The position numbers were made by a program, and so were the translations under genes. This document shows positions 40,126-45,197 of a DNA stretch of 64,000 bases, piece by piece. Under the pieces are notes generated by a model. That model ran no database searches. It was not told where the DNA came from and was given only the letters and a program-made list of their open reading frames with translations. Position 1 is the stretch's first letter; every line of letters starts with the position of its first letter. Source of the stretch: a bacterium (lineage in GTDB: Bacteria > Actinomycetota > Acidimicrobiia > Spongiisociales > ZC4RG35); NCBI GenBank assembly GCA_028819345.1, contig JAPPLW010000103.1, positions 1-64,000 of the forward strand, given 5' to 3'.

Positions 40126-41064
40126 CTACCCGCGGGCGATCTCCAGCCAACTGTCGACCCGGTCGCGGTTGGATGCGATCCAGGCCTCGGCGTCGGCCTG
40201 CACATCGGCGTCGGAGTACTCGTCCGCGGCGGCCATCTTGGCATTCTGAGCGGCGATGTCGCTCAACGGAATCGCCACCACCTCCAGGAGACGGCGGATA
40301 TCCGGGTTGTCATCCAAGAAGTTGGTGTTGGCCACGGCCCGGATGTCGTTTACGCCGTGCTCGTACACCCACACCGCGTTGTCGCCGTCCACCAGGGAGT
40401 CGGCGGTCCAGTTGGGCGTGTAGGCGTAGAACAGCACCGACTCACCGGCATTCACCCGGTCGATGACGCCTCGGACCAGGTCGTCGTAGTTACCCACGAT
40501 CTGTTCCACGTTGGCGCCCCAACTCTCGTCGGCGATCAGGTCGTTGATCCAGGTGTTGCATCCCCATCCGGCGTTGCATCCGATCAGGTCGGCCTTGCCG
40601 TTGCCGTTGGCGTCGAAGACACCGGCATTGGCGGCTACGTCAGCCATGGACGTGATCCCCAGCCGGTCGGCGGTGGCCTTGTCGACCATCCAGCCCTCGA
40701 CGCCCCCCTTGGCTACTTCATAGCCGACGGGTTCGATCGGGAGATCCACCGCTTGGCCGGTGACGTTCTCTCCTTCCAGGAAGATGTCGTGGTTCGGGAA
40801 CCATCCGTTGGCCCACAGGTCGTACTGCCCGGCGGCCAGGGCCGGATAGAAGGAAAATGGCTGCAACTCTGCCAACGCGGGATCGGTGACCTCGTGTCCG
40901 AGTTCTGCGATCAACTGAGCGTAGATGGCGGCCTGCATGTGACCGGAGCCCCAATCGGCCCGAGCAATCGTCACGGGTCGATCTTGGCCGTCGGTGGCGC
41001 AGGCGGAGAGCACCAGCACGAACGCCGCGAGGGCGGCGATCAGTACATTCGTTCTCTTGATCAT
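40126..41064 (-). CDS. Glycine betaine-type substrate-binding protein (ProX/OpuAC), lipoprotein
   Basis: LVLSACATDGQ lipobox; RADWGSGHMQAAIYAQLI..LWANGWFP..GCNAGWGC..FYAYTPNWT; ATGA overlap with BCCT stop. Confidence 0.9.
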   Translation of the reverse strand: MIKRTNVLIAALAAFVLVLSACATDGQDRPVTIARADWGSGHMQAAIYAQLIAELGHEVTDPALAELQPFSFYPALAAGQYDLWANGWFPNHDIFLEGENVTGQAVDLPIEPVGYEVAKGGVEGWMVDKATADRLGITSMADVAANAGVFDANGNGKADLIGCNAGWGCNTWINDLIADESWGANVEQIVGNYDDLVRGVIDRVNAGESVLFYAYTPNWTADSLVDGDNAVWVYEHGVNDIRAVANTNFLDDNPDIRRLLEVVAIPLSDIAAQNAKMAAADEYSDADVQADAEAWIASNRDRVDSWLEIARG

Positions 41065-42830
41065 GACTGGTCACCTCCTCTTCCCAGCCTCTCAAGCAAG
41101 CCGCTGTGCTGGGCCTTGAAGATGGCCTCGTCGTAGTGACTCTCCAAGAGGTCGAGTTCTTCGTCGAAGGCCTTCTTGAGGCTCCACAGCATGATGAGAA
41201 GCACGAACAGGAATGGCAGCCCGGTGGCCACGGCGGCCGTTTGGAGTGCCGATAGGCCACCTCCCAACAGCAACACGCATGCGACGAGGCCCTCCATGCA
41301 CGCCCAGAAAACCCGCTGGGGCTTGGGCGAGTCGAGCTTTCCTCCAGAGGTGAGGTGATCCACGACCAGAGACCCGGAGTCCGACGAGGTAACGAAGAAC
41401 GAAACCAACAGCAAGATGCCCACTATCGAGACGAAGAAGGTCCATGGGAAGGCCTCCAACATCACGAACAGGGCGGTGGCCACGTTCTCGTTCACCGCGG
41501 TGGCAACGTCCAGTTCACCGGTCATCTGCAGATTCATGGCCGCTCCGCCGAACACCGCGAACCACAGGAAGCACAGGAGGCAGGGGAGGACGATCACACC
41601 GATGATCATCTCCCTCACCGAGCGTCCCTTGGAGATTCGGGCGATAAACATGCCGACGAAGGGAGACCAGGAGATCCACCATCCCCAGTAGAAGATGGTC
41701 CACCACTGCTGCCACTGGGTGTCGATCAACGCTGCGTTCCAGAACGAGAACTCCGGCAGGATCTGGATGTAGACGCCGATGCTCTCAACGTACAGCGACA
41801 GGACCAACAGGGTCGGTCCCACCAACATCACGAACAGCAGGAACGCTGCGGCCAGATAGACGTTGAGCTGGCTGAGCCTCTTGACCCCTGCATCCAGACC
41901 TGCAACCACCGAGATGGTCGCCAGCCCGGTAATGAAGGCGATCAGGAGGATCTGGAACCCGGTGCCCTCCGGGAGGCCGAAGAGCTTGTGCAGTCCCGCA
42001 GCAGCCTGTCCGGCGCCGAATCCCAGTGAGGTGGCGAGCCCGAAGAGGGTGGCCACCACCGTCAGGATGTCGATGGCGTTGCCCCATCCGCCGTAGATCC
42101 TCGGACCGAGAATCGGATAGAAGACCGAGCGGAAGGTCAGTGGCAGGCCGCGGTTGTAGGCGAAGAACCCCAGGGCCAGGGCTACCAGGCCGTACAGCGC
42201 CCATCCGTGGATCCCCCAGTGGAGGTAGGATGTCGCCAGCGCTCCTCGGGCCGCGCCCGCTGACAGGGGCTCGACGTCGAAGAGGGGAGGCGGCGCCGTC
42301 AGGTGATAGATCGGCTCTGCGACGCCCCAGAACATCAACCCGATGCCGAGACCGGCGGAGATCAACATTGCGTACCAGGCGCCCGTGGAGAACTCGGGAA
42401 GGGCCCCTGGACCTCCTAGTCGGATCTTGCCGTATCTCCCTAACGCAAAGTAGAGAGCGGCGCCGATAAAGATGTTGAACGCGATGATGTACAGCCAACC
42501 CACCTTCTCGTTGATGAAGGTGAGAATGGTGCCGAACACATCAGCGGCCGACTCCGGGAACAACAAGGTCCAAGCGATGAACAGCAGCAGGAAGCCTGCC
42601 GCGTAGAACGTCACCTGGGGGTGGATGTCGAATCCCCACTTGACAATGTTCTTGTCACCGGGTTCCCGGTCGGCCACCTCGGGATAGAAATCGATGTCGG
42701 GATCGACTTGGAGGCCTTCGAACTGGGGTCGATTACGGATGGCCTCCGCGCGGCGGCGCTCCTCATCCTCTTCCCAGTCCTCGTAGGCCTCGGCGATCTG
42801 AGTGAGATCGAGATCTTCTTTCTCAGACAT
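41061..42830 (-). CDS. BCCT-family betaine/carnitine/choline transporter
   Basis: GLGIGLMFWGVAEPIYHL; WTIFYWGWWISWSPFVGMFIARISKGRSVRE; SDSGSLVVDHLTSGG; RBS AAAGGAG before ATG. Confidence 0.95.
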   Translation of the reverse strand: MSEKEDLDLTQIAEAYEDWEEDEERRRAEAIRNRPQFEGLQVDPDIDFYPEVADREPGDKNIVKWGFDIHPQVTFYAAGFLLLFIAWTLLFPESAADVFGTILTFINEKVGWLYIIAFNIFIGAALYFALGRYGKIRLGGPGALPEFSTGAWYAMLISAGLGIGLMFWGVAEPIYHLTAPPPLFDVEPLSAGAARGALATSYLHWGIHGWALYGLVALALGFFAYNRGLPLTFRSVFYPILGPRIYGGWGNAIDILTVVATLFGLATSLGFGAGQAAAGLHKLFGLPEGTGFQILLIAFITGLATISVVAGLDAGVKRLSQLNVYLAAAFLLFVMLVGPTLLVLSLYVESIGVYIQILPEFSFWNAALIDTQWQQWWTIFYWGWWISWSPFVGMFIARISKGRSVREMIIGVIVLPCLLCFLWFAVFGGAAMNLQMTGELDVATAVNENVATALFVMLEAFPWTFFVSIVGILLLVSFFVTSSDSGSLVVDHLTSGGKLDSPKPQRVFWACMEGLVACVLLLGGGLSALQTAAVATGLPFLFVLLIMLWSLKKAFDEELDLLESHYDEAIFKAQHSGLLERLGRGGDQS

Positions 42831-43112
42831 ACGAACTCCTTTCTACTCGTGGATCAACCATTCTCGCCTCCTTCCGTTGTCTTCTCTACTTCACTACCAC
42901 CCGCAACGAACGATCTCCAGCAAACCTCAGCCGTGACGGTGGGGATTGGTATTTCCCAGCAACCCTACTTATGAACCTTCGGGCGCGTCGCAAAAAGCGG
43001 CGAATCTTTTTTCTTGTTTCACCTGGTGGAATGACATTCATTTTCAGGACGCAGAAGGAGCATTTGCATATCGCCTTGCTACCCTTTGGCCCAGCCCACC
43101 CGGACACCTTTC

Positions 43113-45197
43113 ATGCGCAGAATCTCCATAGTTGTCTTGGGAATACTTTCAGTAGTGCTTTTTTCTCCGCTGGCCGCGGCTATTGCCCAGGTCGAGTCGG
43201 AGGAGGACAGTGCTGAAAAACAAACGGTGCGGATGGCTCGGGCCACCTGGGATACGGGCTGGTTCCAAGCCGAGGTTTATCGCCTCCTGATCCAGCGGCT
43301 CGGGTATCAGGTCGAGGGACCTGTCACCATGGACAATGACGAATTCTACGAAGCCGTGGCGGTGGGCAAGGTGGACCTGTGGGCCAACGGATGGTTCCCG
43401 ACACAGGACGTCTTCATTCAAGAGGACCACGTGGAATTGGTGGGAACTCAAGTGGACGATGGGGCCCTGCAGGGATACTTCGTGGACAAGGCGACCGCAG
43501 AAGCTCACGGAATCACCAATCTGGGTGACTTGTCCTCTCCCGAGATTGCCGCGCTGTTCGATGAGGATGGGGACGGAATGGCCGACCTGACCGGGTGCGA
43601 GCCCTCGTGGGGTTGTGCGGCGATCATTGATCACCACCTGGAGGCATACGGCTTGAGAGACACGATCGAGCAGGTTCAGGGCACCTATTCACCCTCGATC
43701 AGGGCGACCTTCGATCGGTATCGGTCCGGGCAACCGGTCCTCTTCTACACATGGACGCCCAACTGGACGGTTGGCAAGTTGCAGCCTGGCGTGGACGTGA
43801 TCTGGCTCGAGACGCCCTTCCCCTCACTGCCCGCGGAACAGGCTGCCTACCTGGACCGGACCACGATCGCCGGGATCCCGGGATGCGCCAACGATCCCTG
43901 CCACGTCGGTTGGCCTCCCAATGACATACGGGTGGTGGCCAACACCCGGTTCCTGGAAGCCAATCCCTCCATCCGGAGGTTGTTGGAGCAGGTGGTGATA
44001 CCACTGGGAGACATCTCCGCTCAGAACGCCTTGATGGTGGCCGACGAAGGGGATCCCGAGGACATCCGCCGCCATGCTGAGGAATGGGTGGACGCCAATC
44101 AGGTAACCGTGGAGGGCTGGATAGAGGCCGCGGACCCGGAGGCGGTGGGACTGGAAGACACCGGCGGCGCCATCTCGGCGGCCGGGGGCAGGCTGGCGGT
44201 GGCCGCACGCATCCTCCCACCGTTCGTGATCTATGACGACCGCTCCTACAGCGGTTTCGAGGTGGAGTTGGCGCATCTCCTGGCCGCCCGGCTGGGGATG
44301 GAGGTCGACATCTACGCGGTGGATACAGTGGCCAAGCAGATCGATGACATCGACCGCGGCGTTGCGCGAGTGGCCCTCGGGGGAGTGGCGATCACCGAAT
44401 CCAGGGAGCGGCTGGTCGATTTCTCGTTGCCGGTGCTCAACGCCGGGCTAACCATCATGGCGCCCAGCGAAGCGAACCGGAACCTCGGCGATCGGATCCT
44501 GCTGTTCCTCAGGGCCATCATCTCCTCGGACCTTCCCTGGTTGTTGATGGTGTTCGGGGTGGCGGTGCTGGTCTCCGCCCATGTGATCTGGTGGTTGGAG
44601 CGCCATCACAACGCCGACTTCGCCGTGCCCTACCGCAAGGGAATCTGGGATTCGTTCTACTGGTCGGTGGTGACCATGAGTACCGTCGGTTATGGCGACA
44701 AGGTGGCCAGGGGCGACAAGGGGAGGGTGTTCGCCCTGATCTGGATAGCCCTGGGAACACTGGTGTTCGCCAGTTTCACCGCTTCCATCGCCTCTTCCCT
44801 GGCGGTAAGCGAACTGCGTGCGGAGATCGCCGGGCCCTCCGACCTGCCCGGTCAACGGGTTGCCACGGTCTCCCAAACGGCCGGGGCAGCCTACCTGTCC
44901 GCCATAGGGGTGGGGCCGGTGCTGGTGGAGGACATCGGGGAGGCATACTCGCTGCTACAGGCGGGTGACGTAGATGCGATTGTATTCGACGCTCCCGTGC
45001 TCCACTTCCATGCTTCCCGGGAGGGAGGCGGCGAGGTGGCGACAGTTGGGCCCGACTTCGAACAGGTCCAGTACGGGTTGGCGCTGAGCCAGGCCGATGC
45101 CGACTTCCGCGAACAGGTGAACCTGGCCCTGTTGGACCTCATCGAGAGCGGCGTCTACCGCCAACTCCACGATCGGTGGTTCGGTCCCTTGGGCTGA
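43113..45197 (+). CDS. Fusion: ProX/OpuAC-type betaine-binding domain + GluR0-like ligand-gated ion channel (SBP_bac_3 halves flanking TM-P-TM with TVGYGD filter)
   Basis: Signal peptide; N-domain RATWDTGWFQAEVYRLLI..LWANGWFP..GCEPSWGC..FYTWTPNWT; then RLAVAARILPPFVIYDDRSYSGFEVELAHLLAARLGMEV; TM1 WLLMVFGVAVLVSAHVIWWLE; filter TMSTVGYGD (44673-44699); TM2 VFALIWIALGTLVFASFTASIASSLAV; S2 half to the C-terminus. Confidence 0.92.
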   Translation: MRRISIVVLGILSVVLFSPLAAAIAQVESEEDSAEKQTVRMARATWDTGWFQAEVYRLLIQRLGYQVEGPVTMDNDEFYEAVAVGKVDLWANGWFPTQDVFIQEDHVELVGTQVDDGALQGYFVDKATAEAHGITNLGDLSSPEIAALFDEDGDGMADLTGCEPSWGCAAIIDHHLEAYGLRDTIEQVQGTYSPSIRATFDRYRSGQPVLFYTWTPNWTVGKLQPGVDVIWLETPFPSLPAEQAAYLDRTTIAGIPGCANDPCHVGWPPNDIRVVANTRFLEANPSIRRLLEQVVIPLGDISAQNALMVADEGDPEDIRRHAEEWVDANQVTVEGWIEAADPEAVGLEDTGGAISAAGGRLAVAARILPPFVIYDDRSYSGFEVELAHLLAARLGMEVDIYAVDTVAKQIDDIDRGVARVALGGVAITESRERLVDFSLPVLNAGLTIMAPSEANRNLGDRILLFLRAIISSDLPWLLMVFGVAVLVSAHVIWWLERHHNADFAVPYRKGIWDSFYWSVVTMSTVGYGDKVARGDKGRVFALIWIALGTLVFASFTASIASSLAVSELRAEIAGPSDLPGQRVATVSQTAGAAYLSAIGVGPVLVEDIGEAYSLLQAGDVDAIVFDAPVLHFHASREGGGEVATVGPDFEQVQYGLALSQADADFREQVNLALLDLIESGVYRQLHDRWFGPLG

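Follow-up and report, generated by a model that had tools for sequence, protein, structure and literature searches.

A ProX-type binding domain fused to a GluR0-type K+ channel beside a BCCT transporter: a putative osmolyte-sensing bacterial glutamate receptor

Introduction

A gene that joins a complete ProX-type binding domain to a GluR0-type K+ channel within a single protein was found in the window, i.e., the whole 64,000-nucleotide stretch of acidimicrobiial DNA analyzed here. The domain order, the fold, the residues of the binding cage, ligand site and filter, their conservation, and the linkage of the gene to a BCCT-family transporter are all directly observed. The reading that we consider probable is that of a two-ligand, K+-selective prokaryotic ionotropic glutamate receptor (iGluR), in which the ProX amino-terminal domain (ATD) senses a betaine-type solute and the K+ flux is coupled to solute uptake.

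The natural comparison group is made up of the GluR0 of Synechocystis and the other “Group 1” prokaryotic iGluRs (Ger et al., 2010, PMC2950845; PMC13099474). Cores of the GluR0 type are K+ channels whose two termini both lie outside; GluR0 itself carries K+ and influences cell volume during a KCl shock (PMC13099474). Bacterial GluR0 is stated to be without an N-terminal domain (PMC6385376). Has a fusion of this kind been described before? In the literature covered, mostly non-subscription papers, no description of a ProX::GluR0 architecture or of a betaine-gated bacterial channel was found, and in a survey of 100 prokaryotic sequences, the domain-network legend contains no OpuAC domain (PMC2950845).

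Gene and Domain Architecture

The fusion gene opens with an ATG and encodes 694 residues plus the stop, with 0 internal stops, in keeping with the single uninterrupted frame claimed by the first-pass annotation. Its start (M-R-R...) is kept in same-genus homologues as well as in many other Acidimicrobiia. The protein reads, in order: signal peptide, complete ProX domain, linker, S1, TM1, pore loop TMSTVGYGD, TM2, and S2. This order had been claimed from the letters alone, and Pfam, the PDB matches, the model and hydropathy all show it to be correct. Pfam detects OpuAC at residues 38-327 (E 4e-47), SBP_bac_3 at 368-691 (E 4e-24, interrupted by the membrane part), Ion_trans_2 at 483-563 (E 4e-15), and Lig_chan (E 2e-11); the first three are the domains for which a check had been proposed, and they have the expected layout. 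Hydropathy indicates a signal peptide and two transmembrane segments, and nothing further. The AlphaFold2 model is a monomer built from 47 homologues (mean pLDDT 80, pTM 0.50), whose relative domain placement (given that pTM) and filter (residues 525-528, low confidence) are unreliable. The features of the gene and its neighbors are as follows.

43113..45197, plus strand: whole gene, ProX::GluR0-type K+ channel fusion (ORF, Pfam, PDB sequence search, AlphaFold2 model, fold search)
43113..43187, plus strand: signal peptide, residues 1 to about 25, cleavage site undetermined (hydropathy peak at residues 4-24; model helix 2-17)
43224..44135, plus strand: ProX-type amino-terminal domain, residues 38-341 (Pfam OpuAC, NCBIfam ProX, 1r9l by sequence and fold, alignment columns)
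44136..44186, plus strand: flexible linker, residues 342-358 (pLDDT <50 at 344-357; weak conservation in the alignment)
44187..44477, plus strand: S1 half of the ligand-binding domain, residues 359-455 (Pfam, PDB sequence match, alignment columns)
44532..44600, plus strand: TM1, residues 474-496 (model, hydropathy)
44631..44699, plus strand: pore helix and K+ filter, residues 507-529, with TMSTVGYGD at 521-529 (44673-44699) (sequence, Pfam, alignment columns, model)
44715..44816, plus strand: TM2, residues 535-568, containing FASFTASIASSLAV (sequence, model)
44823..45185, plus strand: S2 half of the ligand-binding domain, residues 571-691 (Pfam, PDB sequence match, alignment columns)
41061..42830, minus strand: BCCT-family transporter, 589 aa, divergent neighbor (Pfam BCCT, E 3e-185)
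40126..41064, minus strand: stand-alone ProX-like protein with a lipobox-like signal (LSAC) (Pfam OpuAC, E 2e-35; 1r9l, E 3e-35)
42831..43112, no strand: divergent intergenic region between the BCCT and fusion genes (ORF positions)

The ProX-Type Amino-Terminal Domain

The N-domain is specifically of the ProX type, the type of E. coli ProX. It scores 344.6 bits on the NCBIfam ProX model NF008334 and thus passes the cut-off of 215; genes like this one are liable to be named automatically as ProX. E. coli ProX (1r9l) is the best PDB sequence match (E 3.8e-64) and also ranks first in the fold search done with the model (TM of target 0.90, 36% identity). The first-pass annotation had called this a complete ProX/OpuAC-type domain and had accepted that a lack of fold similarity would refute it; the fold is there, along with a pass on the curated ProX model.

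In E. coli ProX, glycine betaine is contacted by W65, H69, W140, G141, C142, and W188 (PMC10087775). By alignment, these become W94, Q98, W166, G167, C168, and W214 in the fusion protein, while C136 becomes C162. The three-tryptophan cage for the quaternary ammonium group (W94/W166/W214) is therefore present. W94, W166, C162, and C168 are each found in 47/47 full-length homologues, and position 214 is aromatic in all 47. Position 98, the equivalent of ProX His69, is a histidine in 38/47 aligned homologues and a glutamine in three, including the window's protein, in which the His69 carboxylate contact is missing. Compared with E. coli ProX, the binding protein of ProU, the domain is thus alike in sequence, fold, tryptophan cage, and disulphide cysteines, but it is fused to a channel, lies outside any proVW operon, and has Gln in place of His69.

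The GluR0-Type Channel Half

For the C-terminal half, the best PDB sequence match is the NpGluR S1S2 core (2pyy, E 5e-37), and in the fold search, AMPA-receptor LBD-TMD chains were matched after 1r9l, with a TM of target up to 0.60. Together with the TMSTVGYGD filter, these matches uphold the proposal of a GluR0-like second half with a K+ selectivity filter. The GYG of the filter occurs in 46/47 aligned homologues. P370, T428, and R431 in S1 and D626 in S2 are each found in 47/47 homologues; R431 and D626 are the S1 Arg and S2 Asp, the residues that hold an alpha-amino acid, and both are present. F555, T556, and A557 in TM2 are invariant among the 47 homologues, and the TM2 stretch FASFTASIASSLAV resembles the iGluR gate motif SYTANLAAF. 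A non-functional cage or pore would also have counted against the original reading; at the residue level, both are intact and conserved.

One position separates most of the fused proteins from the GluR0 group. Five residues before R431, the Ser or Thr seen in the unfused relatives inspected by eye gives way to Ala or Gly in 40/47 fused rows. The S1S2 ligand is therefore perhaps not glutamate, or the site is altered. This substitution suggests a ligand at the second site different from that of GluR0.

In two Jiangellaceae fusions (L078:7812-9947 and L097:8182-10065), the K+ filter is replaced by ITPFGAGN, so selectivity has probably changed in these proteins.

Distribution, Selection, and Origin

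The full-length fusion is present in 5/5 other same-genus genomes searched, in 12/60 near relatives, and in 27/396 genomes sampled from the class (one of them split over two contigs), with 61-91% identity among the homologues in these relatives. A scan of GTDB representatives yielded 59 ORFs having both halves plus GYG or a related motif, with overall identities down to about 39%; as the scan was seeded with exact peptides, this number is a lower bound. The carriers belong to the Actinomycetota (Acidimicrobiia, Nitriliruptoria, Jiangellaceae), the Cyanobacteriota (Symploca, Caldora, Leptolyngbyaceae, Halomicronema), the Chloroflexota, the Desulfosarcinaceae and other deltaproteobacterial groups including an Olavius symbiont, the Bacteroidota, and the Kiritimatiellae, and Pfam confirmed the architecture in five distant fusions. 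Two cultivated organisms, Salsipaludibacter albus and Halomicronema sp. CCY15110, are among the carriers. The search of other genomes that had been called for thus located it in dozens of assemblies from several phyla, which removes the possibility of an architecture confined to this one assembly. The distribution is patchy, since only 4/243 genomes of the cyanobacterial class and 1/247 of the Olavius symbiont's phylum carry the fusion (center genome counted in each case). No PLSDB record covered at least 80% of the query, leaving plasmid spread unsupported.

Against close homologues, dN/dS is about 0.05-0.13 for all folded modules, and judged by these ratios every one of them is under purifying selection. 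In the tree of the channel half, the fusions come close to a single clade when set against 18 unfused GluR0-like sequences (SH-aLRT 98%); a lone unfused cyanobacterial row falls within it. In the ProX tree, as many as three changes of the fused/unfused label are required, on weak branches. Based on these two trees, a single origin therefore appears likely but has not been shown.

Several variants deserve separate mention. A 712-aa Chloroflexaceae protein (L102:330-2468) fuses ProX to SBP_bac_3 without a channel, and is possibly an intermediate or a parallel of the fusion. Between L040:8001-10082 and window positions 43113-45194, the ProX halves are 89.5% identical and the channel halves 78.6%, with synonymous differences of 0.34 and about 0.6, respectively; going by these alignments, the contrast looks like recombination between modules. 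In L099:7938-10096 and L092:7830-9993, the fusion is split over two frames, and decay cannot be distinguished from sequencing error. An apparently larger fusion, a 1411-aa ORF in L061, was rejected as read-through over the antisense strand of a BCCT gene.

Gene Neighborhood

The fusion gene is divergent from a BCCT gene whose product has as its nearest PDB entry the trimethylamine transporter 8zw8, followed by choline and betaine transporters. It is the sole BCCT found in the window's genome assembly, which was searched piecewise. The BCCT gene is in turn overlapped by 4 bp by the stand-alone ProX-like gene, whose product is 37% identical to the fusion's N-domain. A recent duplication of this neighboring ProX into the channel is unsupported, given that identity and the fact that the companions form their own clade (98), separate from the fused domains.

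A BCCT gene adjoins the fusion in 44/50 loci with enough flank (L104, a fusion fragment, was left out of the neighborhood counts), compared with 0/18 loci for unfused GluR0 and 0/12 for ProX-only genes. Many of the 44 are from closely related Acidimicrobiia and are not independent. However, the pair recurs in Nitriliruptoria, other Acidimicrobiales, Chloroflexota, Kiritimatiellae (where the two genes overlap by 4 bp), and deltaproteobacteria, and it occurs in divergent, convergent, and co-directional orders. The linkage is not universal, because some fusions lack a BCCT gene despite enough flank, among them cyanobacterial, Desulfosarcinaceae, and Bacteroidota ones; none was found at L080, L085, or L092 (cyanobacterial, enough flank), nor at L073, L089, or L097.

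A stand-alone OpuAC-family solute-binding protein (SBP) often accompanies the pair, and its type depends on the lineage: in the window's relatives it is ProX-like, in L095 and L096 it comes closest to OsmF, and in L091 to ChoX, the last two types falling below the NCBI naming cut-offs.

L091:7768-8688, L095:7020-8003, L096:10131-11093: companion OpuAC-family SBPs beside BCCT, of different subfamilies

As betaine- or choline-type SBPs are swapped beside a constant BCCT-fusion pair, a common ligand class can be argued. No other independent evidence speaks as strongly for an osmolyte ligand as this linkage to BCCT and to an extra OpuAC-family SBP, which the first-pass annotation had not noted; the binding itself is inferred.

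Might the fusion simply serve uptake? A role as the SBP of an ABC importer was rejected: no proVW lies beside the fusion gene, and the same genome has a complete ProV-ProW-tandem-ProX operon on another contig, which leaves no need for the fusion as a binding protein for ABC import. (The last product of that operon, L151:6197-8392, G000:C31, has 731 aa and carries a tandem pair of almost identical ProX domains; and in Marinimicrococcus flavescens, six ProX genes stand in a row, L103:3241-10134.) It is also conceivable, but in our view unlikely, that the ProX domain catches betaine at the membrane and passes it on to BCCT, with the K+ pore only balancing charge and no gating by solute. The BCCT linkage in several phyla, the soluble companion SBPs, and the intact binding cage would all suit such an arrangement, and SBP-assisted secondary transport by BCCT and these companions remains possible. 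Yet we know of no BCCT transporter of known structure that needs a binding protein, some fusions have no BCCT within reach, and the conserved S1S2 ligand residues and LBD-pore layout would be needless in a passive pore. The two-ligand receptor remains the preferred reading.

Relation to Known Receptors and Channels

The fusion has the S1-TM1-pore loop-TM2-S2 order of GluR0 and NpGluR, along with their TxxTVGYGD filter, S1 Arg, S2 Asp, and signal peptide, but adds a complete ProX domain in front. It is thus a core GluR0 plus a separately acquired sensory domain. With eukaryotic AMPA and NMDA receptors it shares the ATD-linker-LBD layout with an inserted pore, the LBD-TMD fold, and a TM2 motif like SYTANLAAF. 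It differs from them in having no M4 (both model and hydropathy give two transmembrane helices only) and in having a K+ filter rather than a non-selective cation pore. Their ATD is moreover LIVBP-like, whereas that of the fusion is ProX/OpuAC, and Pfam finds no match to ANF_receptor, the LIVBP-like ATD, in the protein. The parallel with the eukaryotic ATD, but drawn from an osmolyte-binding family, was already proposed in the first-pass annotation and is supported here: the ProX ATD is a parallel acquisition, separate from the eukaryotic one.

ATDs help assembly in eukaryotic iGluRs. It could be imagined accordingly that the fusion is an amino-acid-gated channel of the GluR0 type, its core being complete, with ProX acting mainly as an assembly or dimerization module in which solute binding has little regulatory weight. 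This we hold to be quite unlikely, as it is not merely the fold but the ligand cage that is invariant across phyla, the ProX domain is under purifying selection, and the neighbors are a betaine-type transporter and SBPs. A solute-sensing ATD remains our reading. Betaine-gated ion channels are already known in C. elegans, for example DEG-3/DES-2 (PMC9860315, PMC8747062), but these belong to the unrelated animal pentameric Cys-loop family.

Proposed Mechanism

The ligand, the tetramer, the coupling, its sign, and the physiology are inferred, with no binding or current data. The extracytoplasmic ProX ATD would bind a methylated onium solute, either glycine betaine or one like it (choline, proline betaine, TMAO), while S1S2 would bind an amino-acid-like zwitterion and, in the manner of GluR0 and iGluRs, pull on the inverted K+ pore. 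ProX closes clamshell-like on glycine betaine; through the 17-residue linker, such closure would act on the S1S2 layer and allosterically change pore opening, a proposal modeled on the ATD-to-pore control of some eukaryotic iGluRs. The fusion, BCCT, and the companion OpuAC-family SBP would then form an osmolyte module. With solute outside, the channel would open and K+ would leave as betaine enters to replace it as the osmolyte, and this exit would balance the charge of cation-coupled BCCT uptake. For a K+ channel reading the outside solute next to an importer, K+ exit and solute uptake would thus be coupled. On salt shock, bacteria take up K+ first, then export it once compatible solutes accumulate (PMC8844918).

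That the gating is activating is only a guess. The solute might inhibit or desensitize the channel instead, as NMDA-receptor ATDs can inhibit, or the channel might be mainly a K+ inlet at high external KCl, as proposed for Synechocystis GluR0, which acted passively in that role under KCl stress (PMC13099474). We find this opposite sign improbable, K+ exit on betaine uptake being a better fit to known osmoadaptation (PMC8844918), but no data decide the matter. Finally, an assembly or annotation chimera or a decaying pseudogene, which the fragmented genome (120 contigs) and the few split homologues (L099, L092) might have evoked, merits virtually no credence and is ruled out by full-length fusions in dozens of separate assemblies, isolates included, and by a dN/dS of about 0.1 in every folded module.

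Significance

As far as we could find, no directly solute-gated bacterial channel coupling K+ release to solute uptake is known. More tentatively than the main reading, and with rather less than even confidence, we suggest that such proteins are a widespread class of bacterial coincidence-detecting K+ channels, which need or are tuned by both an outside betaine-type osmolyte at the ProX ATD and an outside amino acid at S1S2, and which, together with BCCT, directly exchange cytoplasmic K+ for imported compatible solute. If this is true, a ligand-binding ATD would be described here for the first time in a bacterial iGluR, as would the gating of a bacterial channel by an osmolyte ligand. A modular design for biosensors would also be offered. 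In this family, bacteria have acquired an iGluR ATD separately, from an osmolyte-binding family. It provides a simple K+-selective protein in which to ask by what means the pore of an iGluR is controlled by a second clamshell, and a system for asking how cells link K+ release to the uptake of compatible solutes.
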